Shown here piece by piece: positions 22,242 through 44,578 of a stretch of DNA of 54,258 bases. Made by a program: the position numbers and the translations under genes. How positions within the stretch are numbered: position 1 is the stretch's first letter; every line of letters begins with the position of its first letter. The notes beneath the pieces were generated by a model that was given only the letters and a program-made list of their open reading frames with translations, searched no databases and was not told the origin of the DNA. Source of the stretch: Clostridia bacterium (GTDB lineage Bacteria; Bacillota; Clostridia; Oscillospirales; Acutalibacteraceae); NCBI GenBank assembly GCA_017410195.1, contig JAFQRF010000007.1:1-54258 (forward strand). Reading direction: 5' to 3'.

Positions 22242-22245
22242 AATA

Positions 22246-22352
22246 AAGAATTAAAAATGAATAATGAATAATTACGGGCACAAAGTGCGAGGGGTTCTTA
22301 TATTTTAGCGTCGCAGACCCTTTATTTTTCATTCTTCATTCTTCATTTTTCA
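22246..22352. repeat. AT-rich inverted-repeat element between mreC and mreD
   Basis: Imperfect complementary arms (AAAAATGAATAATGAATAAT and ATTTTTCATTCTTCATTC) flank a core containing GCGTCGCAGACCCTTT. Similar elements with the same GTCGCAGACCC core lie at 41386-41500 and 43155-43465. Confidence 0.72.
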
Positions 22353-22364
22353 TTTGAAAAAATT

Positions 22365-25815: not shown

Positions 25816-27183
25816 ATGGATAACAGAACAATTGCCGCCATTGCGACTCCGAATGCACCGGGCGGAATCGGCGTAATCCGAATTTCGGGCGAAAACGCAG
25901 TTGAAATTGCTGACAGAATTTTCAAGCCCGTCAGCGGAAAATCTCTTACCGAAAGCAAGGGCTACCGTGCGCATTTCGGCGATGTTTATTATAATAATGG
26001 AAAAATTGACGAGGCTGTCTGCCTCGTTTTTCGTGCACCCGCAAGCTATACGGGTGAGGATGTCGCCGAGATTTCGTGTCACGGCGGTCTGTTTGTAACA
26101 AAGCAGGTGCTTCGTGCCGTACTCGATGCAGGTGCAGCTCCTGCCGAAGCAGGCGAATTCACCAAGCGTGCCTTCCTCAACGGAAAAATTGACCTTGCCG
26201 CCGCAGAAAGCGTTATGTCGCTCATCGGCGCATCGGGCAAGCAGGCAGCAGCAGCCGCGCTCAACACTCTTGACGGCAACCTCAGCCGTGAAATCAGGGG
26301 AGTAGCGGATTCGATTATCGCAATCTGCGCATCTCTTGCCGCATGGGTTGACTATCCGGACGAGGATATTGAAGACACAAGCGCATCGGATATGCTTCCC
26401 GTTTTTGAATCTGCACAAAATTCTCTTAAGGAAATAATACGCCGCTACGACTGCGGTCGAGCTGTCACCGATGGAATTGATGCCGTCATCGTCGGCAGAC
26501 CCAACGTTGGCAAATCAACGCTGATGAACCTTCTTTCGGGATTTGAACGCTCAATCGTGACCGATATTGCGGGTACAACCCGTGACGTTGTTGAAGAAAA
26601 AATTGTTCTCGGTGAAATCATTATGAGGGTTGCCGATACGGCTGGAATCCGTGAAACCGAGAATGTTGTTGAGAATATAGGCGTCAATCTTGCGAAGCGA
26701 AGACTTGAACGTGCGGAGCTTGTGCTTGCCGTTTTTGACGGAAGCGAACCGCTGACCGACGACGACCTCGACATTATCAGCCAATGCGAATCAAAAAGAG
26801 CGGTTGCTCTTCTCAATAAATCCGACCTGCCTCTTGCGGCAGACAGAAAAATTATCGAAAATGCCTTTGCTCATTGCGTTGAGCTTTCAGCTTCAACGGG
26901 AGAGGGCAGGGGAGAACTTGAAAAGGCGGTTGCCGAAATTTTCAGAACCAACGAGTTCAACCCGAATGCTGCTTGTCTGACGAGCGAACGTCAGCGCCAA
27001 TGCTGTGTGAACGCACTCGCAAGCATCGAAGAGGCGATTAACGCAATTAACTGCGGAGTGACGCTTGATGCGGTCAACGTCTGCGCCGACTGCGCAATTG
27101 ATGCGCTCCTTCAACTTACGGGCGAAAAAGCAACCTCGGCAGTTGTTGATGAAGTTTTCTCCCGTTTCTGCGTTGGAAAATAA
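25816..27183 (+). CDS. mnmE: tRNA modification GTPase MnmE
   Basis: A 455-residue enzyme that with MnmG adds carboxymethylaminomethyl at the wobble uridine of some tRNAs. It has an N-terminal folate-binding domain and a G domain with GRPNVGKST (227-235), DIAGTTRD, DTAGIRETE and NKSD. The C-terminal CVGK matches the catalytic CxGK. It has the expected length. It is followed, unusually, by an inserted repeat and a secreted-protein gene before mnmG. Confidence 0.96.
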   Translation: MDNRTIAAIATPNAPGGIGVIRISGENAVEIADRIFKPVSGKSLTESKGYRAHFGDVYYNNGKIDEAVCLVFRAPASYTGEDVAEISCHGGLFVTKQVLRAVLDAGAAPAEAGEFTKRAFLNGKIDLAAAESVMSLIGASGKQAAAAALNTLDGNLSREIRGVADSIIAICASLAAWVDYPDEDIEDTSASDMLPVFESAQNSLKEIIRRYDCGRAVTDGIDAVIVGRPNVGKSTLMNLLSGFERSIVTDIAGTTRDVVEEKIVLGEIIMRVADTAGIRETENVVENIGVNLAKRRLERAELVLAVFDGSEPLTDDDLDIISQCESKRAVALLNKSDLPLAADRKIIENAFAHCVELSASTGEGRGELEKAVAEIFRTNEFNPNAACLTSERQRQCCVNALASIEEAINAINCGVTLDAVNVCADCAIDALLQLTGEKATSAVVDEVFSRFCVGK

Positions 27184-27238
27184 AAATTAAACATTTTTGT
27201 AGGAGCGATTCACGAATCGCCCGAATGCTGCGCATTCT

Positions 27239-27475
27239 CAATCCTCAGTCTCGCTTACACTCGACAGCTCCTTTGCCAAAGGAGCTCATTTATCAAATGA
27301 AATCAACAGCAACAGCAGCCTCCTTGGAGAAGGGCGAAGCAGCGAAACGCCGCCGGTGGCGGATGAAGTGAGCTGCTGAGGTGAAGAAACAAGGAGCAAT
27401 GCCGACGCTCCAAGGATGGCAGTGCGACTGTGTTTCTGAGGGCGTTACCACGGCTTCAGCCGTGACGGAGAATTG
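27239..27475 (-). repeat. MITE-like element, inverted copy of the 37.9 kb element
   Basis: A 237-bp element with ends CAATCCTCAGTC and GACGGAGAATTG, forming terminal inverted repeats. By eye, most of its right half is nearly identical to the reverse complement of 37850-38076. It has no coding capacity. A small GCGATTC/GAATCGC hairpin (27205-27220) precedes it. Confidence 0.82.
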
Positions 27476-27595
27476 ATAATATGTAAGGAAAAACGGAACG
27501 GATATTATCTGCCCGTCAAAATAACCTGTTATTTAAAATTTCGCCCCCTAACCGCTGTTTCACGCTTTAAATCAACGAACAGGAGGTTGAATTCA

Positions 27596-28261
27596 ATGAG
27601 GCATAAAAAATTTTTTATTGCAACAATCTGTTTGCTTGCTGTAATTATTGCTGCTTTTGCAAGCGGTGTTATTGTCACCGACCGTTCCGCCGTCTATTCT
27701 GCCGAAGGATTGAACTGGAACGGCACATTCTATAAACCCTGCTCGGGTTTTTACGAAGAAGGCAAAACAATCGCAAAAACATCCGACGGAAATTGGAATA
27801 TCAACGAAGTCAAAGGTGACACGGAACACAATTTTGTTGTTGTTCGCTCAGGACTTGACGATTCTCTTCTGGTTCGTGAAGATTACAAAATTCCCGAAAG
27901 CGGAATTACCAATACGGTTTATCTCGGAACAATAAAGATTTCGGATCGGGAAAAGTGCAAAATTATCTCCGACATCTTTCTGAATGACAGCGAAACTTTT
28001 TCCGTTTCTGCTACCCATGAAGATGTCAATAATTGGCAGTCTGTATCAATCGGCTTTGACGGTTGCCCCGTTGCTGTTTTCAGAGGATACATCGGTTTTG
28101 CTGACGGAAACTACTTTTTCACCGTTGACCTCACCGATATGAAAGAGAAAGACGACGGAAGCGGCGAACCGTTTACCGTTCTGTGCAAATCCGTAGATAA
28201 AAGCTGTTATGCGATGCTCAATGAATATTTTGCATATTATTTTTCCTATTTAGCATCATAA
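27596..28261 (+). CDS. Membrane-anchored secreted protein, function unknown
   Basis: A 221-residue protein with one N-terminal helix (about 7-27: FFIATICLLAVIIAAFASGVIV), then a polar extracytoplasmic part with many charged residues and several cysteines. ATG 27596 is preceded by AGGAGG (27581-27586), which fixes the start; the longer frame from 27473 runs into repeat sequence. I do not recognise a domain. It interrupts the common mnmE-mnmG order and may be an inserted gene. Confidence 0.72.
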   Translation: MRHKKFFIATICLLAVIIAAFASGVIVTDRSAVYSAEGLNWNGTFYKPCSGFYEEGKTIAKTSDGNWNINEVKGDTEHNFVVVRSGLDDSLLVREDYKIPESGITNTVYLGTIKISDREKCKIISDIFLNDSETFSVSATHEDVNNWQSVSIGFDGCPVAVFRGYIGFADGNYFFTVDLTDMKEKDDGSGEPFTVLCKSVDKSCYAMLNEYFAYYFSYLAS

Positions 28262-28408
28262 TGGCTGTTTTTAATTCTTATTCAGCATCAAAACAGTGAT
28301 TTTCGATTACAGCCGATTGTGTGAATCGAAACGAGCTGAGCATCGTTTCAAAAATTTCTATTGGCTGTAAACGAGAGGTTTTTTCATACTATAAATTGGA
28401 GTTTTTCT
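28262..28408 (+). promoter_or_regulatory. Structured leader upstream of mnmG
   Basis: The gap contains CTGTTTT/AAAACAG (28265-28271, 28290-28296), TTTCGATT/AATCGAAA (28301-28308, 28324-28331), GAAACGA/TCGTTTC (28328-28334, 28343-28349) and TTACAGCC/GGCTGTAA (28307-28314, 28363-28370). The second and third stems share bases and exclude each other. It may be an attenuator or just terminator plus spacing. Confidence 0.45.
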
Positions 28409-30283
28409 ATGGAGTACATTTCTGAAAATTTTGATATTGCGGTTATCGGTGCAGGTCACGCAGGAATTGAAGCGGGTCTTGCTGCCGCACGTCTCGGATG
28501 CAAAACCGCCGTTTTCACTATCAATCTCGACTGGGTGGGCAACATGCCGTGCAACCCGTCAATCGGCGGCACATCGAAGGGTCACCTTGTGCGTGAGATT
28601 GACGCGCTCGGCGGCGAGATGGGTATTGCCGCTGACCGCAACACTCTGCAAAACAGAATGCTCAATCTCGGCAAAGGCCCTGCCGTACACAGTCTGCGTG
28701 CGCAGATTGACCGCCGAGGCTACTGCGACTATATGAAATATGTACTCGAAAAGCAGGAAAATCTCTATCTCCGTCAGGCTGAAATCATCGATATCCGCCG
28801 TGACGGCAACGAATGGATTCTCAAAACCCGTCTTGAAGCGCTCCACAGAGTAAAAGCAGTTATTATCGCAACGGGTACCTTCCTTGCAGGCAAAATTTTT
28901 ATCGGTGATATTTCCTATGAAAGCGGACCCGACGGAATGTTCCCGTCAGTTGAGCTTGCGGAATCGCTTAAAAAACTCGGTGTGATGACCCGCCGTTTCA
29001 AAACGGGTACTCCGCCGAGAATCAACCGCAGAAGCGTTGACCTTGAAAGCCTTGAGCCGCAGTACGGCGATGAAAAAATCACCCATTTTTCCTATGTTAC
29101 CGACTTTGAGGTTCGCAACACCGAGCCTTGCTACATCACATACACGGGCGAAGAAACCAAGAAAATCATTCTTGACAATCTTCACCGTTCACCCCTCTAT
29201 TCGGGCAAAATTGACGGTGTCGGACCCCGTTACTGCCCCAGCATCGAGGATAAAATTGTGCGTTTCTCCGAAAAAGAACGCCACCAGATATTCGTTGAGC
29301 CGTGCGGCGCAAACACGGATGAAATGTATCTTCAAGGACTTTCATCATCACTTCCCGAGGATGTTCAGCTCAAAATTGTCAGAAGCATCCCCGGACTCGA
29401 GAATGCTGAATTCCTCCGCACCGCATATGCGATTGAATATGACTGCGTTGACCCGCTTTCACTTCGCCAGACCCTTGAATTCAAGGATTTTGAAGGTCTT
29501 TACGGCGCAGGACAGTTCAACGGCTCGAGCGGTTATGAAGAAGCCGCCGCCCAGGGACTTGTTGCGGGAATGAACGCCGCCCTTAAAATTCAGGGTAAAG
29601 AACCCGTAATTCTTGACCGCACAACCTCTTATATCGGCACTCTTATTGACGACCTTGTGACCAAAGGCTGCTCCGACCCGTACAGAATGATGACATCACG
29701 CTCCGAATACAGACTCATTCTCCGCCAGGATAATGCCGACCGAAGGCTCACCGAAATAGGCTACAAGGCAGGTCTTATCAGCGAGGAAAGATATCAAAAC
29801 TTCCTTAAAAAGCTTGAACTTATCGCAAAAGAGCGTGAAAGAATAGAAAATCTCTCCATTCCCAAGACCGACGAGATTGATGCAATGCTTGTTTCACGTG
29901 GAACATCGGCACTCGAAAAGGGTCTTAAGATGATTGAGCTTCTGCGCAGACCCCAGGTAAATTATGAAGCGCTCACTCCCTTTGACAAAACCCGACCCGA
30001 CCTGCCCGACGATGTTTTTGAGCAGGTTGAGATTGACATAAAATATGAGGGATATCTCAAACGTCAGCAGATGCAGATTAACGATTTGCGCCGCCTTGAG
30101 GTAAAACGTCTGCCGAATGACCTTAATTATAAGGATATAACGGGTCTGAGACTTGAAGCGATTGAAAAGCTCGGTAAAATCCGACCCGAAACAGTCGGTC
30201 AGGCTTCGAGAATTTCAGGCGTTTCCCCTGCCGATATCTCGGTTTTACTTATCTATCTTGAGAGGAATAATATAAATGTATAA
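28409..30283 (+). CDS. mnmG: tRNA uridine-5-carboxymethylaminomethyl modification enzyme MnmG
   Basis: A 624-residue FAD-dependent partner of MnmE. It has [10 protein letters not shown] (14-23), [19 protein letters not shown], the catalytic-Cys region [14 protein letters not shown], and the tRNA-binding C-terminal domain. ATG 28409 is preceded by TTGGAG; a longer frame from 28361 has no site. It overlaps rsmG by eight bases. A perfect parS-like palindrome lies inside its 3' half. Confidence 0.95.
29890..29905. other. parS: parS-like centromere site inside mnmG
   Basis: TGTTTCACGTGGAACA differs from the B. subtilis-type consensus TGTTTCACGTGAAACA by one base. It is a likely ParB loading site in the coding region, about 3.2 kb upstream of parB. 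Confidence 0.85.
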
Positions 30284-30986
30284 CACCTCACTCCTGCTTT
30301 CTGATGCCGAAAAGCTCGGTATTTCAATAAATGACGAGCAGATAAAGCTCTTTGAGAAGCTTTCAGACCTGCTCGTTGAGCAAAATAAAACAATGAACTT
30401 AACTGCCATAACCGACCCCGACGGTATCGCCGTCAAGCATTTTGCGGACAGCATCTCCGTGCTTTCGGCTATTGATATTCCGCAAGGTGCAAGAGTTACG
30501 GATATCGGCACGGGCGCGGGTTTCCCCGGCATTCCCCTTCTCATTATGCGACCTGATATCGATCTGACTATGATTGACAGTACGGCAAAAAAGCTGAAAT
30601 ATGTTCAGTCAACGGTTGATTCGCTCGGTCTTATCGCAACAACGCTCCATACAAGAGCCGAAGAAGCGGGTCAGAGCAAGGAATACCGTGAAAAATCAGA
30701 TATAGTCTGCTCACGTGCGGTTGCGGCACTCAATGTTCTTTGCGAATACTGCCTGCCGTTTGTCAGAGTCGGCGGACTGTTCATAGCAATGAAGGCAGCC
30801 AAAGCGCAGGAAGAAATCGCCGATGCAAAAGCGGCAATCAAGCTCCTCGGCGGCGAAATTATCGATGAAAAGTCGTTCACCCTCTCCGACGGCGGCGAAA
30901 GAACACTTGTTATCATCAAAAAGATATCGCATATTCCGCCCAAATACCCCAGACCCTCCGCACAGATTGCTAAAAAACCTCTTTAA
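30276..30986 (+). CDS. rsmG: 16S rRNA (guanine-527-N7)-methyltransferase RsmG
   Basis: A 236-residue SAM-dependent methyltransferase that methylates G527 of 16S rRNA. Motif I is [16 protein letters not shown], and [27 protein letters not shown] precedes it. It overlaps the end of mnmG. It ends before a 107-base gap with the noc promoter. Confidence 0.95.
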
Positions 30987-31035
30987 ATTTAATATGAATT
31001 GCAGATTTGCGCCGCTTTTTGGCGATTGAATTTGC

Positions 31036-31064
31036 TGGACAATCCCCTCTTTCGGTGTTAGAAT
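31036..31064 (+). promoter_or_regulatory. Promoter of noc
   Basis: TGGACA (31036-31041) and TAGAAT (31059-31064) are separated by 17 bases, so noc has its own start point apart from mnmG-rsmG. Confidence 0.6.
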
Positions 31065-31093
31065 TAACTCAACGAACGGAGGGGATTTGATTT

Positions 31094-31924
31094 TTGAAGA
31101 ACGGAAAATACAAAATCGGCGGACAGATAATTCTTGTGCCGCAGGAAGAAATTTATCCGAATCCCAATCAGCCGAGAAAACGGTTTGATTTTGATGAGCT
31201 TGAAGGTCTTGCCCAAAGCATCAGACAGAACGGCATCATTCAGCCGATTGCAGTGAGAATCAACGGTAAGGGCGAATATGAACTCATTTCGGGTGAACGC
31301 CGCCTGAGAGCATCACGGCTTGTCGGCATAACGCAGATTCCGTGCATCATCATGGATGCTACCGATGAAAAATCCGCACTCTTTGCTCTTCTTGAAAACA
31401 TACAGCGCAGCGACCTCGGATTCTTTGAGGAAGCGCAGGCGATTGAAAAACTTATAATCGATTACGGAATGAGCCGCGATGAGGTCTGCAAAAAGCTCGG
31501 CAAAGCTCCCCCGACAGTTTCAAACAAGCTTCGCCTGCTCCGTCTGCCCGAAGAAATCAGACTTAAAATAATTCAGGAAGACCTGACAGAACGACACGCA
31601 AGAGCGCTTTTGAAATTAACTTCAATCAGTCAGATGGAGCGTGCAATGTCCATCATTGCGGAGAAAAGACTGAACGTCGCCGAATCAGAAAGACTGATTG
31701 CTCAGATAATGACCAATGACAGCCGCCGCAGACAGCCGCCCGTAAAGCTTTTCAAGGATGTAAGAATTTTTGTAAACACCCTTAACCATGCGGTTGATAC
31801 CATGCGAAAGGCAGGAATAGAAGCGGACTCGGCAAAAAGCGAAACCGACGAATATATCGAATATATTGTTCGTATTCCAAAAACGGGCAATTGCGTTATC
31901 AAGGCAAAACGCACGTCGGCATAA
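31094..31924 (+). CDS. noc: ParB-family nucleoid occlusion protein Noc
   Basis: A 276-residue ParB-like protein: N-terminal NPNQPRKRFD and GERRLRASRLVGITQIPCI (the ParB clamp fold), and a helix-turn-helix in SRDEVCKKLGKAPPTVSNKLRLLRLP. It lies just upstream of parA-parB and is a paralogue of the ParB below. Noc marks the nucleoid and blocks division over it. It starts at TTG with GGAGGGG nine bases upstream. Calling it Noc rather than ParB rests on this gene order. Confidence 0.85.
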   Translation: MKNGKYKIGGQIILVPQEEIYPNPNQPRKRFDFDELEGLAQSIRQNGIIQPIAVRINGKGEYELISGERRLRASRLVGITQIPCIIMDATDEKSALFALLENIQRSDLGFFEEAQAIEKLIIDYGMSRDEVCKKLGKAPPTVSNKLRLLRLPEEIRLKIIQEDLTERHARALLKLTSISQMERAMSIIAEKRLNVAESERLIAQIMTNDSRRRQPPVKLFKDVRIFVNTLNHAVDTMRKAGIEADSAKSETDEYIEYIVRIPKTGNCVIKAKRTSA

Positions 31925-31982
31925 CATTGACATCCTCTAACTTACCATATCTTTCTCTTTCACACCCACATCCAAGCGGAAG

Positions 31983-32006
31983 GAGCAGGCTTCGTGCCTG
32001 CTCTTT
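31983..32006 (+). terminator. Weak terminator after noc
   Basis: GAGCAGGC (31983-31990) and GCCTGCTC (31996-32003) form a hairpin followed by TTTCT. It would separate noc from parA. Confidence 0.5.
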
Positions 32007-32028
32007 CTGCTTTGTCTGCTGATAATGA

Positions 32029-32056
32029 CGGCGGGATGTGGGCATCCCGCCCTACA
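32029..32056. repeat. REP-like hairpin (GGCGGGATG type) in the noc-parA gap
   Basis: The same hairpin family as at 12.6, 25.0 and 45.3 kb, with the usual CTACA after it. Confidence 0.8.
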
Positions 32057-32110
32057 ATATCTTTTTATGAAAAATATTATTTTTCAATATTCTTTAAAAT
32101 CTGCGGATAA

Positions 32111-32128
32111 TTGTTCCACGTGGAACAA
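32111..32128. other. parS: parS centromere site upstream of parA
   Basis: TTGTTCCACGTGGAACAA is an 18-base perfect palindrome. Its 16-base core TGTTCCACGTGGAACA matches the ParB/Spo0J parS consensus apart from the symmetric C/G change. It lies about 200 bases before parA, as expected for a ParB loading site. Confidence 0.92.
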
Positions 32129-32144
32129 TATTACAAAATTACAT

Positions 32145-32219
32145 CGTAGGGACAGTTCTCCGTGTCTGTCCGTGTGTGCTTTGAGTTGTTTCGGGACGAT
32201 ACAGAGGTCGTCCCCTACG
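32145..32219. repeat. REP-like hairpins in the parA leader
   Basis: A degenerate GTAGGGACAG/CTGTCC hairpin (32145-32171) and GGGACGAT/GTCGTCCC (32193-32219). The gap 31925-32320 holds these, parS, the preceding hairpins and a TATAAT (32281-32286) near parA, and no gene. Confidence 0.7.
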
Positions 32220-32320
32220 TTTTTTATTATATGTGGAGTAATAATATTATTTTTTTCTTTTCTTTTTATAAAATCTATGATATAATAAGATTTAATGTAA
32301 TTAATATAGGAGAGATTAAT

Positions 32321-33094
32321 TTGGGAAAGACAATTGCAATTGTTAACCAAAAAGGCGGAGTCGGAAAAACAACCTCTGCCGTTAACCTTACAGCCGCACT
32401 TGGCAGCAAAGGATATAAAATTCTGCTTGTTGACATTGACCCTCAGGGAAACTCGACCAGCGGACTCGGAATAAACAAAAGAGGGCTTAAGATTTCATCA
32501 TATAATGTTCTTATCGGTGATTCCCCTGCTGAAAGTGCAATAGTTGAAACTCCGTATGCCAACGTTTTTGTTTTACCGTCAAGCATGGACCTCGCCGGCG
32601 CAGAGCTTGAGCTTGTTGATATTCAGAAAAGAGAATCAAAGCTTAAAAATGCTCTTGCACTCATTAAAGATGATTTTGATTTTATTTTTCTTGACTGTCC
32701 GCCGTCGCTCGGTCTCATTACTCTCAACGGACTTTGCGCCGCAGATACTCTGATTGTTCCCATTCAGTGTGAATTCTTTGCTCTTGAAGGACTTTCACAG
32801 CTTATCGCAACAGTCAGAAACGTAAAAAGACTTTATAATCCCTACATAGAAATCGAAGGCGTGCTTCTGACGATGTATAACGGTCAGCTCAACCTTACTC
32901 AGCAGGTTGTTGAGGAAGTAAAAAGATGCTTCCCGAAAAAGGTTTATTCAACCGTTATTCCGAGAAATGTCAGGCTTTCCGAAGCACCCAGCTACGGTCA
33001 GCCGGTTATGTATTACGATAAATCCTCCAAGGGCGCTCACGCTTACAGCGACCTTGCAGATGAATTTTTAAGATTGAACGGAAAGGAGAAATAA
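32321..33094 (+). CDS. parA: Chromosome-partitioning ATPase ParA (Soj)
   Basis: A 257-residue ATPase with NQKGGVGKTTSAVNL, LVDIDPQGNSTSGLG and DFIFLDCPPSLGLITLNGL. ParA dimers bind DNA and work with ParB-parS to organise and separate chromosome origins. The start is TTG 32321, behind AGGAG (32308-32312). A longer frame upstream runs through repeats and is not credible. parB follows one base after its stop. Confidence 0.95.
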   Translation: MGKTIAIVNQKGGVGKTTSAVNLTAALGSKGYKILLVDIDPQGNSTSGLGINKRGLKISSYNVLIGDSPAESAIVETPYANVFVLPSSMDLAGAELELVDIQKRESKLKNALALIKDDFDFIFLDCPPSLGLITLNGLCAADTLIVPIQCEFFALEGLSQLIATVRNVKRLYNPYIEIEGVLLTMYNGQLNLTQQVVEEVKRCFPKKVYSTVIPRNVRLSEAPSYGQPVMYYDKSSKGAHAYSDLADEFLRLNGKEK

Positions 33095-33095
33095 T

Positions 33096-33962
33096 ATGGC
33101 GCCTAAAAAAAGCGGTCTCGGCAGAGGACTCGGCTCTCTGCTTGCAGATAATTCTTTAGAAGAAACAAGCGGAGCTCAATCCGTAAAGCTGAATCTTATG
33201 GATATTGAGCCAAATAAAGACCAGGCAAGAAAGATTTTTGACGATGCGTCTCTTTCTGAGCTTGCAGATTCAATTGCCAAGCACGGCGTTTTGCAGCCGC
33301 TTCTTGTCCGCCCGATGATTGGCGGCGGATATCAGCTCGTTGCAGGTGAAAGACGTTGGAGAGCAAGCCGCATTGCAGGGCTGACACAAGTTCCCGTAGT
33401 TATAAAAGAACTCAGCGATACAGAAGCTGCCGTTATTTCCTTAATAGAAAATTTACAGCGTGAAGACCTCAACCCTGTTGAAGAAGCTCTCGGCTATGCA
33501 AGCCTTATCAGAGACTTTAATCTTACTCAGGAGGAAGCTGCGGAAAAGGTCGGCAAATCAAGACCTGCAGTTGCAAACGCGCTCCGTCTGCTCAAGCTAC
33601 CCGAAGCGGTGCTTGACATGATTCGCGAAAACAAGCTTTCCGCAGGTCACGCAAAGACTCTCGTTGCCTTAGATGATGAAAAGCTCATAATCTCAACGGC
33701 AGAATTCATTGTTGAAAAAGGTCTTTCAGTCAGAGGAACAGAAAAGCTCGTCAAATCCCTGACTGCAGAAAAGAAAGAGCCGAAAAAAGCTCCTTCCCGT
33801 CACACCTTCTTTGATGAGGTTGAGCTTTCGTTGAATAATTCTCTCGGCAGAAAAGCAAAGGTAATCACCAAAAACGGAAAAGAAAGCGGTACTCTTGAAA
33901 TCGCTTTTTATGATAAAGACGACCTTGCAAGAATTGCAAAAATACTTGAAGCATTGGAATGA
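33096..33962 (+). CDS. parB: Chromosome-partitioning protein ParB (Spo0J)
   Basis: A 288-residue CTPase/DNA-binding protein: LNLMDIEPNKDQARKIFDD, VAGERRWRASRIAGLTQVPV (clamp motifs), NLQREDLNPVEEA and a helix-turn-helix TQEEAAEKVGKSRPAVANALRLL. It loads at parS and spreads. The C-terminal dimer region is lysine-rich. Two parS sites lie close upstream, at 29.9 and 32.1 kb. Confidence 0.95.
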   Translation: MAPKKSGLGRGLGSLLADNSLEETSGAQSVKLNLMDIEPNKDQARKIFDDASLSELADSIAKHGVLQPLLVRPMIGGGYQLVAGERRWRASRIAGLTQVPVVIKELSDTEAAVISLIENLQREDLNPVEEALGYASLIRDFNLTQEEAAEKVGKSRPAVANALRLLKLPEAVLDMIRENKLSAGHAKTLVALDDEKLIISTAEFIVEKGLSVRGTEKLVKSLTAEKKEPKKAPSRHTFFDEVELSLNNSLGRKAKVITKNGKESGTLEIAFYDKDDLARIAKILEALE

Positions 33963-38460: not shown

Positions 38461-38499
38461 TTTTTTAATAAAAAGATTATTGATGAAGGAGTGAAAAGA

Positions 38500-40182
38500 A
38501 TGTATCAGGCGCTTTACAGAAAATGGAGACCGAAGGATTTCAGCGACGTTTACGGTCAGCCCCATGTAACCAGAACTCTCCGCAGCCAGCTTGAAAGCGG
38601 AAGAATCTCCCATGCATATCTTTTCACGGGTTCAAGAGGTACGGGTAAAACAACCTGCGCAAAAATTCTTTCAAAGGCGGTCAACTGCCTGAATCCCGTT
38701 GACGGCAACCCCTGCAACGAGTGCGAAATCTGCAGAGGAATAGAAAACGGCTCAATTCTTGACGTTATCGAAATCGATGCCGCCAGCAACAACGGTGTTG
38801 ACAATATCCGTGATTTGCGCGAGGAGGCAAACTTCACTCCTGCAAACGCAAAATACAGAGTATATATCATCGACGAGGTTCACATGCTCTCAATCGGAGC
38901 ATTCAATGCTCTTCTCAAAACCCTTGAAGAGCCGCCCTCACACGTTATTTTTATCCTCGCAACAACCGAAATCCACAAACTGCCGTCAACCATTCTTTCA
39001 AGATGTCAGCGTTTCGATTTCAAGAGAATTGCTCCCGAAGATATTACGGCAAGGCTTATGTATGTTGCGGAAAAAGAAAATGTTAACCTTACCTCAAACG
39101 CCGCAAGTCTTATTGCGAGAATTGCAGACGGCGGAATGCGAGATGCTCTTTCTCTGCTCGACCGATGCTTTGCAATGGGAACGGATATTGACGAAAACAC
39201 AGTCAGCGATGCTGCAGGCATTGCAGGCACGGTTCATCTTTTTTCTTTCTCGGAATTTGTTGCAAACGGCGATTTTACAAGCTCGCTCAGGCTTGTTTCA
39301 AAGCTCCACAGCGAAAGCTGCGACATCGACAGTCTTTGCACGGAATTGACTCTTCATTTCCGTAATCTCATGGTTGCAAAAACCGTCGGTGACTGCGAAG
39401 GACTGATTGTCTGTTCAAAGGATGAGCTTGCAAAAACAAAAGAAAGAGCTTCACAGCTCAAGCTTTCAAAAATCCTTTCGTGCATTGAAATTCTCGAACA
39501 GACGGCTAAAAACATAAAGAACGCCGCAAACAAAAAAATCCAGCTTGAAGCGGCTGTAATCAAGATGTGCGCTCCGTCATCATCATCGGGAGAAGGATTT
39601 TCCGCAGACCTTGAAGAAAGAATCAGCAAAATTGAAGAAAAGCTCCTTTCTCTCGCTTCGGGTGCAGTCATAAATCCCGCACAGGTTCAGAGAAACACAC
39701 AGCCTGAAACTGTTCCTTACGTACCCGAAGAAAAACCGGCAGAAGCTCCAAAACCTGCTTTCCAGCCTGCTCCCGTACCTAAGGAAGAACCGAAAGCAAA
39801 AGAATATGAAGCTCCGCCTGTTCCGGAAACTCCGTCAGTACCCCCCGCTCCTGCGGAAATTTCCGATATTCCCGACGGAAACTTTGACAACTGGGCGGAC
39901 GTTCTTGACAAACTGATGAAATATGATATACCGCTTTTCGGAATTCTTTCGAATTCCAGCGCATCAATTAAAAACGGCAGAGTCATAATTCATTCCGATA
40001 ATTCTACTCTCTTTGATTTTATCTGCACCGATACCCATTCAAAAGAGCTTGCAAGAGCCGTTTATGAGGTTATGGGCAGAAAAATGAAAATTGCGGTTTC
40101 AAACAGCGATAAACCCAAGGCGGATAAAAGTCCGCTCGAAAATTTAAAGGCTAAAATTAATCAATTTAATTCAAATAACTGA
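38500..40182 (+). CDS. dnaX: DNA polymerase III subunits gamma/tau
   Basis: A 560-residue clamp-loader subunit. ATPase domain: SRGTGKTTCAKIL (near 44-56), a Cys4-type zinc cluster in NCLNPVDGNPCNECEICRG, IDAASNNGVDNIRDLREEANF and HMLSIGAFNALLKTLEEPP. A Pro/Glu-rich linker (about 400-470) leads to the C-terminal tau-type tail. ATG 38500 is set by AAGGAG (38486-38491); GTG 38491 is an alternative. No clear slippery site for gamma production. Confidence 0.94.
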   Translation: MYQALYRKWRPKDFSDVYGQPHVTRTLRSQLESGRISHAYLFTGSRGTGKTTCAKILSKAVNCLNPVDGNPCNECEICRGIENGSILDVIEIDAASNNGVDNIRDLREEANFTPANAKYRVYIIDEVHMLSIGAFNALLKTLEEPPSHVIFILATTEIHKLPSTILSRCQRFDFKRIAPEDITARLMYVAEKENVNLTSNAASLIARIADGGMRDALSLLDRCFAMGTDIDENTVSDAAGIAGTVHLFSFSEFVANGDFTSSLRLVSKLHSESCDIDSLCTELTLHFRNLMVAKTVGDCEGLIVCSKDELAKTKERASQLKLSKILSCIEILEQTAKNIKNAANKKIQLEAAVIKMCAPSSSSGEGFSADLEERISKIEEKLLSLASGAVINPAQVQRNTQPETVPYVPEEKPAEAPKPAFQPAPVPKEEPKAKEYEAPPVPETPSVPPAPAEISDIPDGNFDNWADVLDKLMKYDIPLFGILSNSSASIKNGRVIIHSDNSTLFDFICTDTHSKELARAVYEVMGRKMKIAVSNSDKPKADKSPLENLKAKINQFNSNN

Positions 40183-40452: not shown

Positions 40453-40785
40453 ATGAAAGCAAGAATTCCCGGCGCTCCCCAGGGCGGCAACATGATGAAA
40501 AAAATTCAGGAAATGCAGGAAAATATGACAAGAATTCAGCAGGAAGTTGAAGCAACAGAATTTTCATCCTCAGTCGGCGGCGGTGCAGTTGAGGTTGTTG
40601 TCAACGGCGCACACGAAGTAACCGCAGTCAATCTCAAGCCCGAGGTTGTTGACCCCGAAGATGTTGAAATGCTTCAGGATCTCATCATTTCCGCATTCAA
40701 TGAAAGCATCCGCAAGGCTAATGAAGCCATGGAGCAGGGCATGGAAAAGGCTAAGGGCGGTCTTTCAATCCCCGGTCTGTTCTGA
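40453..40785 (+). CDS. ybaB: YbaB/EbfC nucleoid-associated protein
   Basis: A 110-residue DNA-binding protein: MMKKIQEMQENMTRIQQEVEATEF, VEVVVNGAHEVTAVNLKPEVVDPED and LQDLIISAFNESIRKANE. ATG 40453 lies behind CGGAGGA; the longer frame includes a repeat-like region. It is coupled to recR by a one-base overlap, in the standard dnaX-ybaB-recR order. Confidence 0.95.
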   Translation: MKARIPGAPQGGNMMKKIQEMQENMTRIQQEVEATEFSSSVGGGAVEVVVNGAHEVTAVNLKPEVVDPEDVEMLQDLIISAFNESIRKANEAMEQGMEKAKGGLSIPGLF

Positions 40786-41384
40786 TGAGCGGATTTACTC
40801 CTTCTCTCGAGCAGCTTATTGAGCAGTTTGCCCGGCTCCCGTCCGTCGGTAAAAAAAGTGCGCAAAGGCTCGCTTTTCATGTTCTCAACATGAGCGATGC
40901 CGATGCACAGAAATTCACGGATACAATTCTCAATGCCCGAAAATCAATCAGCCGATGCAAAATATGCTGCAATCTCACCGACGGCGAGATATGCGGCATC
41001 TGCTCGTCACAGTCGAGGGATAAATCGACAATCTGTGTTGTTGAAGATCCCCGTGACGTTATCGCAATTGAGAGAACCCACGAATATAACGGGCTTTATC
41101 ACGTTCTTCACGGAGTAATTTCACCGATGAACGACATAAATCCCGAAGATATCTGCATAAAAGAGCTGATTTACCGCCTTGAAGACGATACCGTCAAGGA
41201 AGTTATCATGGCAACAAATCCGACCGTTGAGGGCGAAGCAACCTCAATGTATATTTCAAGGCTGATAAAGCCTATCGGAGTCAATGTCAGCAGGCTTGCT
41301 TACGGCGTACCCGTCGGCGCAGACCTCGAATATGCGGATGAATTTACCCTTATCAGAGCAATTGAGGGAAGAAATAATCTTTAA
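40785..41384 (+). CDS. recR: Recombination mediator RecR
   Basis: A 199-residue protein of the RecFOR pathway. It has a helix-hairpin-helix region (LPSVGKKSAQRLAFHVLN), the Cys4 zinc finger CKICCNLTDGEICGICSS, and the Toprim domain (VVEDPRDVIAIE...). The ATG uses TGATG overlap with ybaB. Confidence 0.95.
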   Translation: MSGFTPSLEQLIEQFARLPSVGKKSAQRLAFHVLNMSDADAQKFTDTILNARKSISRCKICCNLTDGEICGICSSQSRDKSTICVVEDPRDVIAIERTHEYNGLYHVLHGVISPMNDINPEDICIKELIYRLEDDTVKEVIMATNPTVEGEATSMYISRLIKPIGVNVSRLAYGVPVGADLEYADEFTLIRAIEGRNNL

Positions 41385-41385
41385 T

Positions 41386-41500
41386 AATGAAAAATGAATA
41401 ATTAATAATGAATAATTTCGGGCGGGTTTCACCCGCATCCAATATAATAAGCGTCGCAGACCCATAATTTTTCATTCTTCATTTTTAATTATTCATTCAA
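41386..41500. repeat. AT-rich inverted-repeat element between recR and the oriC region
   Basis: Outer arms of AATGAATAAT / ATTATTCATT type with core GCGGGTTTCACCCGC and GCGTCGCAGACCC. Matches the elements at 22246-22352 and 43155-43465. Confidence 0.75.
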
Positions 41501-41760
41501 AAAGTTTTCCACATATTTATCCTTTTCCACATCCGAGTTTTCCACTTATTAACATTGACATAAAATGACAAGTGTAAAACTCAAAGTTTTCCACAAAAAA
41601 AAGTTAATCTTTTCCGATTGATTTTCTATATTTTTCAAGGGCTTCTGGAGTTATACCATATTTCCACGCCCCCTACTATTACTACTATAATAAAGATAAG
41701 CTATGCATTCTATATATACGGCGAAAAACAAAAATTTCTTTTTTCCGCCGTCAGCTTTGC
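41501..41760 (+). other. oriC: oriC-like replication origin region upstream of dnaN
   Basis: Seen in sequence: DnaA-box-like TTTTCCACA at 41505-41513, 41523-41531, 41587-41595 and TTTTCCACT at 41538-41546. Farther right are a weaker box (ATTTCCACG, 41660-41668), a C-rich patch, and then CTACTATTACTACTATAA (41673-41690), which reads as repeated 3'-GAT-5' DnaA-trios. An AT-rich stretch follows. This order (boxes, GC patch, trios, AT-rich) matches the basal unwinding unit of the B. subtilis oriC, which also lies upstream of dnaN. Whether it fires is inference. No dnaA gene is next to it. Confidence 0.68.
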
Positions 41761-41813: not shown

Positions 41814-42923
41814 ATGAAAATAATCTGCAACACACTTGAGCTTTCAGAGGCTTGCCAGAATGTTCAGAGAGCAGCTTCAACAAAAACAGCCATCCCTGCA
41901 ATTGAGGGTATTCTCATGGTTGCAAAGGAAGGAACTCTGACCCTTACCGGCTATGACCTTGAAATGGGAATAACAACTTCAATTTCTGCAAGAGTTGAGG
42001 AGGAGGGCGAGCTTGTTCTCAATGCCCATATGTTCAGTGAAACTCTCAGAAAGCTGCCCGATGTCAATGTCAGTATTGACAGCGATGCAAGACACATTGC
42101 GACAATTTCATGCGGTGAGTTTGAATCAACTCTTATCGGAATCTCCGCAGAAGAATATCCCGACCTTCCTTCGGTTTCGGGCGGATATCCTATTTCCGTA
42201 AAGCAGGAAATTCTCAAGGATATGATAAGAAAAACAATTTTCTCCGCCGCAATCAAGGACAGCAAGATTGTTCACACGGGAATAAAGTTTGAAATTGAAG
42301 ATAATCATATCAGGCTCATTGCCGTTGACGGCGTGCGCCTTGCAATCAGAAACGAAAACATTGCCTATGAGGGCGAAAATCTTTCATTCGTTGTTCCTGC
42401 AAAAACTCTTTCGGAAGTAACAAAGCTTATGAACGATGACGATGCGGATGTTACTCTCGGAGTAGGCAAAAGACACATTATTTTCGAAGTCAACGGCTAT
42501 AACATAATTTCACGTCTGCTTGACGGTGAATTTCTTAATTATAAGGCTGCAATTCCCTCTGCAACAAAGACGGTTATCAACGTTAACACAAGAAATCTTA
42601 TCGACAGTATTGACAGAACATCGCTGATTATCACGGATAAAATAAAAAGCCCTGTCAAATGCATTTTCGGTGATAATCTGATAAAAATTTCAAGCATTAC
42701 CTCTCTCGGTACTGCAAACGACAGAATTTCCGCAGCTATCAGCGGTGAAAACTGCACAATCGGCTTTAATAATAAGTATATGCTCGATGCGCTCAAGGTT
42801 TGTGACACAGACGAAGTGAGAATCATGCTCAACGGACCCGTTGCGCCCATACTTATCGTACCCAACGAGGGTGACAGTTTCATATTCCTTATTCTTCCCG
42901 TGAGGCTGAAAAATGAAGATTAA
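41814..42923 (+). CDS. dnaN: DNA polymerase III beta subunit (sliding clamp)
   Basis: A 369-residue clamp forming a dimeric ring. It matches the family across its length, with the final MLNGPVAPILIVP...FIFLILPVRL typical of the C-terminus. It begins at ATG 41814 behind AAGGAGG. It is usually preceded by dnaA; here it is preceded by the oriC-like region and recR. It overlaps the S4 gene by 11 bases. Confidence 0.96.
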   Translation: MKIICNTLELSEACQNVQRAASTKTAIPAIEGILMVAKEGTLTLTGYDLEMGITTSISARVEEEGELVLNAHMFSETLRKLPDVNVSIDSDARHIATISCGEFESTLIGISAEEYPDLPSVSGGYPISVKQEILKDMIRKTIFSAAIKDSKIVHTGIKFEIEDNHIRLIAVDGVRLAIRNENIAYEGENLSFVVPAKTLSEVTKLMNDDDADVTLGVGKRHIIFEVNGYNIISRLLDGEFLNYKAAIPSATKTVINVNTRNLIDSIDRTSLIITDKIKSPVKCIFGDNLIKISSITSLGTANDRISAAISGENCTIGFNNKYMLDALKVCDTDEVRIMLNGPVAPILIVPNEGDSFIFLILPVRLKNED

Positions 42924-43154: not shown

Positions 43155-43465
43155 TTTAAATTAAAAATTAAAAATGAATAATGAAAAATTGATGGTCGCT
43201 ACGCTCCGAATTATATATTGCTCCGCAAAAGCTGATTAAATCATTCCGTCATTTTCTTACGAAATTGCCACCGATTTGCCTCCCCTTTAGGGGAGGTGCT
43301 GAGCATAAGCGAAGCGGAGGGGTTTCAAAAAGTGAGGCAAATATAAAAATGAGCTTTCTGTTAATGCTCCTTAAAGAGGGAGATGTCCGCAGGACTGAGG
43401 GAGTTTATAAAAAATGTGTCGCAGACCCTTAATTTTTCATTATTAATTATTCATTTTTCATTAAA
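43155..43465. repeat. Composite repeat between S4 gene and recF
   Basis: An outer AT-rich inverted-repeat element (AATTAAAAATGAATAATG / TTAATTTTTCATTATTAATT, GTCGCAGACCC core) is interrupted by a MITE-like segment (about 43245-43402, CCGTCATTTTCTTACG to GGACTGAGGGAG). The gap 43153-43483 has no gene. It breaks the usually tight S4-recF spacing. Confidence 0.75.
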
Positions 43466-43483: not shown

Positions 43484-44578
43484 TTGATAATTAAATACCA
43501 TTCCGCAAAGAATTTCAGAAATCTTGATTCAATTGAATTCGAGCCGCACCCCGAAATGAACGTTATCTACGGTGAAAACGGTCAGGGAAAGACAAATATT
43601 ATTGAAAGCATCTGGCTTCTGACGGGATTTTACAGCTTCCGTGCAAGAAAAAATGCTCAGCTCATTCGGCAGGGAAATGATGAAGCCGAAATTGTCAACA
43701 GATTTTATTCACACATGCGTGAACAAAATGCTGTTATGAAAATCAACAAGAAAAAAGAAATAACCCTCAACGGAATCAAAGAAGAATCCCCGAGAGTTAT
43801 GATGGGCAAATATTATGCCGTTGTTTTTTCGCCCGCAACGCTCGGAATAGTCCAGGACGGACCGGGCGAAAGAAGAAAGATGCTCGATATTGCGCTGAGC
43901 CTTATCAAGCCGAACTATGCGGTGATTATGTCAAGATATCTGCGTGTGCTTGACCAGAGAAATGCTCTTCTGAAAAAAATGGGCGAGCGTAGCTTTGAAA
44001 ACGATTATATTATGCCGTGGAATACCGAGCTTGCAAATCTCGGCTCAAAAATAATCAAATACCGCCTCGATTATATCGAAATGCTTTCAGATATTTCGAC
44101 GGAAATATATAAAGGCATCAGCTCGGGCAGAGAAGAATTTTCTTTTTATTATGATTTTTCCCCGGAAAATATAAGCGAAGAAGAAATAAGAGAAAAGCTT
44201 ATTGCTGATATAGAAAAATCAAAAGAGGCTGACCTGAAAAGGCTTTATACAAACGCAGGTCCCCACACTCACGACCTTGTTCTGAATCTGAACGGCAGAG
44301 ATGCCCGTGTTTTCGGCTCTCAGGGTCAGCAGAGGTCATGCGCACTTGCGTTAAAGCTTGGTGAAGCGTCAATTATCGAAACCGTTACGGGTGAAAGCCC
44401 CGTTGTGCTTCTCGACGATGTTATGAGCGAGCTTGACGAAGGCAGGCAAACCTTCATTCTTAATTATCTTGATAATTGGCAGGTTTTTATCACATGCTGC
44501 GACCCGTCAACGCTTTTGCGTTCAAAAAAAGGCAAGGCATTTGAGGTTATTGAGGGCAAAATAAAAGAAATGGAGTAA
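43484..44578 (+). CDS. recF: DNA replication and repair protein RecF
   Basis: A 364-residue SMC-like ATPase: Walker A YGENGQGKTNIIESIW (30-37), signature SQGQQRSCALALKLGEA and Walker B PVVLLDDVMSELDEGRQ. It loads RecA at gaps with RecO and RecR. It starts at TTG 43484 behind AAAGGA. Family length is normal. Confidence 0.95.
   Translation: MIIKYHSAKNFRNLDSIEFEPHPEMNVIYGENGQGKTNIIESIWLLTGFYSFRARKNAQLIRQGNDEAEIVNRFYSHMREQNAVMKINKKKEITLNGIKEESPRVMMGKYYAVVFSPATLGIVQDGPGERRKMLDIALSLIKPNYAVIMSRYLRVLDQRNALLKKMGERSFENDYIMPWNTELANLGSKIIKYRLDYIEMLSDISTEIYKGISSGREEFSFYYDFSPENISEEEIREKLIADIEKSKEADLKRLYTNAGPHTHDLVLNLNGRDARVFGSQGQQRSCALALKLGEASIIETVTGESPVVLLDDVMSELDEGRQTFILNYLDNWQVFITCCDPSTLLRSKKGKAFEVIEGKIKEME

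Follow-up and report, generated by a model that had tools for sequence, protein, structure and literature searches.

Across bacteria, the linkage of dnaA, oriC and dnaN is broadly conserved. In Bacillus subtilis the origin is bipartite, with a second cluster of DnaA boxes located between rpmH and dnaA. In the cyanobacterium Synechococcus elongatus dnaA is remote from the origin. The elements of the B. subtilis incC region, or basal unwinding system (BUS), are presented in PMC6669920 and PMC8287927. The latter gives a search rule of at least three trio triplets with a DnaA box (two mismatches or fewer) within 16 bases of the trios, and a 13-base spacer between box and trios is the commonest in its survey. 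According to PMC7198777, the oriC of S. elongatus PCC 7942 is found near dnaN at the shift point of the GC skew and is bound by DnaA; the same paper states that origin finders rely on the dnaA-oriC-dnaN linkage. Origins on the dnaN side are already known in cyanobacteria. Searches of one open-licence library turned up no previous description of dnaA having been separated from oriC in the group considered here; the papers returned, PMC1193525 and PMC6669920, appear to deal with other matters.

The sequence belongs to Clostridia bacterium (assembly GCA_017410195.1, contig JAFQRF010000007.1), a draft genome of 2.36 Mb in 88 contigs (G000). The window, that is, the whole stretch of DNA analysed, consists of 54,258 nt. 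It contains, all on the forward strand, four TTTTCCAC boxes, then two weaker boxes abutting one another, a C-rich patch, DnaA-trios, AT-rich DNA and dnaN, and the elements named in the original prediction are all borne out by the sequence. Boxes 1 (TTTTCCACA, 41505-41513), 2 (TTTTCCACA, 41523-41531), 3 (TTTTCCACT, 41538-41546) and 4 (TTTTCCACA, 41587-41595) are located 168, 150, 135 and 86 bases 5' of the trio, respectively. The two degenerate trio-proximal boxes are TTATACCAT (41651-41659), in the place of B. subtilis box 6 with a 13-base spacer to the trio and four mismatches to TTATCCACA, and ATTTCCACG (41660-41668), in the place of box 7; mismatches were counted by hand. The GC cluster CCCC (41669-41672) follows, and then the five triplets CTA CTA TTA CTA CTA (41673-41687), which on the other strand are of the 3'-GAT-5' type and form the 15-base core of an 18-base run, CTACTATTACTACTATAA (41673-41690). 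The stretch 3' of the trios (41688-41727) is 72% AT by base composition and is likely to be the first DNA to unwind.

This arrangement can be compared with the rule of PMC8287927. Five triplets are present where at least three are asked for, and the upstream cluster expected of a BUS-type oriC consists of four boxes. The box nearest to the trio, ATTTCCACG, has two mismatches to the local box TTTTCCACA and three to TTATCCACA, where that rule allows two within 16 bases; at its position a poorer match, ATTTTCAC, occurs in 20 of the 38 nearer loci described below (among the best 80 of 322 loci). The motif TTTTCCACW has six copies in the window, four of them in the origin region, with an expected mean of 1.5, and none of 100 whole-window shuffles reaches six. 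The 18-base trio run has one match in the window at up to three mismatches and none in 100 shuffles, and the 15-base core has a single match across the 2.36-Mb genome at up to one mismatch. The genome has three pairs of TTTTCCAC boxes with a spacing of 3-30 bases, two of them at the origin and one on contig C75. Judged by its elements, the segment 41505-41690 is a putative unwinding module of the B. subtilis type. The pair on C75 (L202, G000:C75:27089-27116) consists of two TTTTCCACA boxes 19 bases apart from start to start, and is perhaps a DnaA-titrating or DnaA-regulated site.

The side normally held by dnaA is occupied by recR (40785-41384, forward strand; TIGR00615, 270 bits against a cut-off of 162.55) and a dispersed repeat (41385-41500) lying between recR and box 1, outside the origin, which agrees with the original prediction. 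Further upstream are dnaX (38491-40182, by profile match) and a gene which, from its sequence and place, we take to be ybaB (40453-40785), giving the order dnaX-ybaB-recR-repeat-boxes. On the other side dnaN, coding for the sliding clamp (41814-42923, forward strand, ATG at 41814; TIGR00663), is followed by a gene starting at 42913, presumably for an S4-domain protein judging from sequence and gene order, and by recF (43484-44578; TIGR00611). A search of its own genome with the repeat gives 44 match rows that differ in length, a count that includes itself and both-strand duplicates; within the window it recurs at 22242-22354 and as pieces inside 43156-43465. Its ends match one another in reverse, and it looks like a miniature inverted-repeat element. 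The repeat was not found in the 308-base gap of locus L068, while the gaps of L066 and L067 are longer. The mnmE-mnmG-rsmG-noc-parA-parB block of the window (25816-33962) is head-on, transcribed toward the origin. In L067, L069, L076, L082 and L100 parts of the mnmE-parB block lie on the opposite side of the origin and still face it, and in L095, L097 and L102 mnmG-rsmG is directed away from the origin, as in those outgroups that show these genes.

The original prediction held that dnaA is absent and had either moved away from this site or been lost. The absence is true of the origin site, where recR stands in the position canonical for dnaA in Bacillota; it is not true of the genome. An intact, full-length dnaA (one gene; TIGR00362, 475.5 bits) is located on contig C86, a contig other than that of dnaN, at G000:C86:2774-4090 on the reverse strand. 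Loss is therefore rejected, and removal from the site is the part of the prediction that stands. Two weaker PF00308 matches, on C14 and C82, resemble ATPases of the helicase-loader type in length and score. On the 190-kb contig C14 a second dnaN-like gene, of 28% identity, and a DnaA-family ATPase match with a 282-residue frame are separated by about 4.5 kb (56776-57807 and 62265-62741; L002), and the two perhaps belong to a mobile element.

On C86 the genes jag-yidC-yidD-rnpA-rpmH are divergent from dnaA-ftsY-rdgB-yhbY-smpB, with 31 bases between dnaA and ftsY (TIGR00064); the other neighbours are presumably as named, from their sequences. The whole block from jag to smpB is also present in the dnaA stretches L209, L211, L212, L213 and L214. 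In L210 a distance of 1.8 kb separates ftsY from dnaA, and smpB is unmatched; L189 and L195 start within the block. Among 30 dnaA loci of the clade, which are short, ftsY is inside 29 and rpmH inside 25. The flanking rpmH-rnpA-yidD-yidC-jag genes suggest that the classic rpmH-dnaA half of the region went with dnaA, while the dnaN-recF half kept the origin. In two relatives with dnaN on another contig, the distance from dnaA to either end of its contig is no less than 209 kb (G017) or 267 kb (G021). These distances give the combination of an oriC beside dnaN and a remote dnaA, as in cyanobacteria, with no cyanobacterial descent implied.

Residues I193 and K222 of B. subtilis DnaA have functional roles. 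In the DnaA coded on C86, V181, I184 and K213 align opposite B. subtilis I190, I193 and K222, by a hand count on the alignment. A role of I190 is described in PMC8287927.

Between rpmH and dnaA, the 25 clade loci have 13 boxes of the form TTWTNVACW where 9.8 are expected, with no clear excess, and 23 outgroup loci have 38 where 20.4 are expected, a modest excess. The second box cluster of a bipartite origin is accordingly not seen there in the clade. A loss of DnaA feedback on dnaA would fit this little or no excess. Taken together with the putative dnaA-ftsY-rdgB-yhbY-smpB operon, it permits a tentative reading, which we consider rather doubtful, that dnaA has left autorepression as well as the origin and that its supply would be set by a growth- or secretion-linked operon. 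If so, the supply of the initiator would no longer be tied to the gene dosage of the origin or to DnaA feedback.

The separation of the two genes is not confined to this genome. A search of 36 genomes of the same genus gave dnaN in 34, a strong dnaA match in 33 and both in 31, and in all 31 the two genes are on different contigs. In a scan of named genomes the best 80 of 322 loci were kept, the relatives' records being labelled Clostridia, Clostridiales, Ruminococcaceae, Oscillospiraceae or Clostridiaceae bacterium. Among these 80, the 38 nearer loci (L066-L102 and L126) all have dnaX before the origin and dnaN, without dnaA, and ybaB-recR directly before the origin in all except L101. The 42 farther loci of the same 80 have dnaA directly before dnaN, at up to about 1.1 kb, in 40 of 40 that could be evaluated; L109 and L135 begin at a contig edge and were left out. 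In a tree built on DnaN alone, the window and 37 separated loci form one clade (100/100). L100, which is separated too, falls at a fork left without resolution. The tree also contains G042, G043 and G047, whose branches are long and whose placement the program marks as unsure.

For the wider family, 118 other genera were drawn evenly from a larger group, one genome each, and the gene places were sorted by hand. Both genes are present in 111; they are within about 1 kb of each other in 101, apart in 8, and near contig ends in 2 (G074 and G143). In five of the eight, recR is located 230-315 bases 5' of dnaN with a trio-like match between them, having no mismatch in G123, one in G075 and G147, and two in G162 and G108. 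At two mismatches the trio search gives up to 13 matches per genome, which is below its reversed control, so it is the position that makes these five genera convincing candidates for the recR-trio-dnaN arrangement. In the other three no trio match is found at dnaN, and recR is elsewhere (G062, G101) or without a match (G093); in these three the genes seem to have come apart in other ways. Among 23 genomes from the remaining families of the order, 21 have both genes, and in 18 the two are adjacent. The dnaN gap of G042 has one box of 8/9 and a best trio of 10/15. G043 has a best trio of 8/15 and no box, and its dnaN and dnaA are both near contig ends. G047 (L207, L208) has five boxes 5' of dnaN, a best trio of 9/15, and dnaA behind dnaX-ybaB-recR, possibly an independent, mirror-like separation. 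These three breaks may be leads only.

The module is conserved among the relatives. Loss of the trio pattern in close relatives would have spoken against the original prediction; at least 12 of 15 positions match CTAx5 in all 38 nearer loci (among the best 80 of 322), and the best trios of 8-10 in G042, G043 and G047 provide a rough yardstick for these scores of 12-15. In an alignment of 39 rows the trio columns are conserved at 0.56-1.00, with 13 of the 15 columns at 0.82 or more. The trio-proximal element in the same 39 rows has the consensus TTATACCATATTTTCACG (0.56-1.00 per column), which is a poor DnaA box, while in the outgroups TTTTCAACA or TTTTCGACA is found at -22 or -21 in 13 of 40 loci (of the best 80 of 322); the box specificity of DnaA may have drifted. 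The box offsets -168/-150/-135/-86/-22/-13 are mostly common to the 18 nearest loci (L066-L082 and L126, of the best 80 of 322). The outgroup locus L141, with dnaA in place, has -170/-151/-137/-87/-22, within 1-2 bases; L143 and L145 are nearly the same, and other outgroups differ. Offsets shared with some outgroup dnaA-dnaN gaps suggest direct descent, the locus being the ancestral origin minus dnaA. In total, the recR-dnaN gaps of the 38 loci contain 152 boxes against 23.4 expected, or 12.6 against 1.9 per kb. Matches to the box motif are sparser in the more distant clade members, L083-L102, and are absent from L083 and L098. TTCAC-type motifs are often present in these gaps instead, so the box sequence may have drifted in L083-L102.

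The place where replication starts was assessed by cumulative GC skew, with plain and detrended minima, on contigs picked chiefly by length before their own skew was known; depth was compared with 2000 bin permutations. The plain minimum, given relative to the site, is at +1.2 kb in G023 (350 kb; 0/2000 as deep), +1.2 kb in G061 (300 kb; 3/2000), -1.3 kb in G022 (112 kb; 10/2000, with the detrended minimum 37 kb away), +6.4 kb in G017 (240 kb; 0/2000) and -10.8 kb in G025 (a 117-kb part; 3/2000). Five of six clade contigs therefore have their plain minimum no more than 11 kb from the site, and three of them no more than 1.3 kb. The contrary case is G020, with its minimum at +75 kb of 264 kb (0/2000); a recent inversion is our guess. 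In all six contigs, third-position G skew is greater on the strand inferred to be leading (p from 1.4e-8 to 0.065). The skews are weak overall, which, like the head-on mnmE-parB block of the window, speaks against an origin at the site; the dip in the window, which alone is too short to decide, is non-significant (730/2000 permutations). The skew check suggested with the original prediction comes out for the site in five of the six clade contigs by the plain minimum, and against it in G020. In G060, an outgroup control with dnaA-dnaN, the minimum is where it is expected, at -3.5 kb within a 400-kb part (p 3.3e-13).

A skew minimum and box cluster beside dnaA itself would also have contradicted the original prediction. 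The dnaA contig of G017 (C12) shows no skew switch over 444 kb: 20 of its 22 bins, each 20 kb wide, have a positive skew, and leading genes are no different from lagging ones (p 0.72). Leading and lagging genes are alike in a 200-kb part of the dnaA stretch G021:C27 as well (p 0.32). There the plain minimum and dnaA are 72 kb apart, but the detrended minimum is only 7.9 kb away (86/2000), which makes this case equivocal.

These observations allow us to propose, with a probability of nearly nine in ten, that the site is the chromosomal origin of the organism, derived from an ancestor with the order rpmH-dnaA-oriC-dnaN-recF by a rearrangement that moved dnaA off. The break in the chromosome would have come after the stop codon of dnaA and before box 1. 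On one side dnaA would have departed with rpmH-rnpA-yidD-yidC-jag and become joined to ftsY; on the other, the origin would have remained before dnaN and become joined to dnaX-ybaB-recR. By analogy with B. subtilis, the DnaA protein from the remote gene would bind to the upstream boxes and to both of the weak boxes next to the trios and would then be loaded past CCCC onto the CTA triplets, and the AT-rich stretch would be opened and the helicase loaded there.

Boxes beside a gene can regulate that gene, and the cluster might accordingly be only a DnaA-controlled promoter of dnaN, with replication starting at some other place, such as one carried along when dnaA moved. The weakness of the trio-proximal boxes would suit such a promoter, as would the remote minimum of G020 and the detrended minimum of G021 near dnaA. 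We nevertheless regard it as improbable: the trio is kept in every nearer locus of the 80, we know of no promoter role for DnaA-trios, the plain skew minimum is close to the site in five of six contigs and missing from the 444-kb dnaA contig, and the rpmH-dnaA gap of the clade has no clear box enrichment. It is less probable still that the site is a degenerating relic of the old origin in a cell whose replication is DnaA-independent or uses many origins, as in some cyanobacteria. The weak skew, the drifted trio-proximal boxes, the fewer box matches in farther clade members and the lost linkage to dnaA could be read in this way, but the high conservation of the trio columns and a full-length dnaA argue against decay.

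An error of assembly or binning, with dnaA really adjacent and the contig chimeric, can hardly be credited. The genome is indeed a draft in many contigs, and in L101 the contig ends oddly, ybaB being matched on both strands. Nevertheless 38 contig records (of the best 80 of 322 loci) repeat this join in front of the origin and dnaN, ftsY recurs at 29 and rpmH at 25 of the 30 short dnaA loci of the clade, and dnaA and dnaN are on separate contigs in every same-genus genome with both.

Tools that look for oriC beside dnaA would put it in the wrong place in these genomes. This group of gut bacteria also provides a natural test of why dnaA and the origin normally sit together. Both states are found in one Bacillota family with the module little changed, so that the value of the linkage for gene dosage, autoregulation and bipartite looping could be tested by comparison.

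The upstream boxes, two trio-proximal positions, short GC-rich spacer, 3'-GAT-5' trios and dnaN are arranged as in the B. subtilis BUS, and the 13 bases from the -22 box to the trios agree with the commonest spacer in the survey of PMC8287927. Unlike the BUS, dnaA is elsewhere and the trio-proximal boxes are degenerate, and unlike the bipartite layout named in PMC6669920, there is no clear box cluster 5' of dnaA. With the outgroup oriCs L141, L145 and L104 the locus shares trios 5' of dnaN, and in L141, L143 and L145 the boxes also stand at almost identical offsets; however, the outgroups have dnaA directly upstream of the origin. The position on the dnaN side is that of the cyanobacterial origins in PMC7198777. 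The cyanobacteria belong to another phylum and the rearrangement was presumably independent; here it is a derived state inside one Bacillota family.
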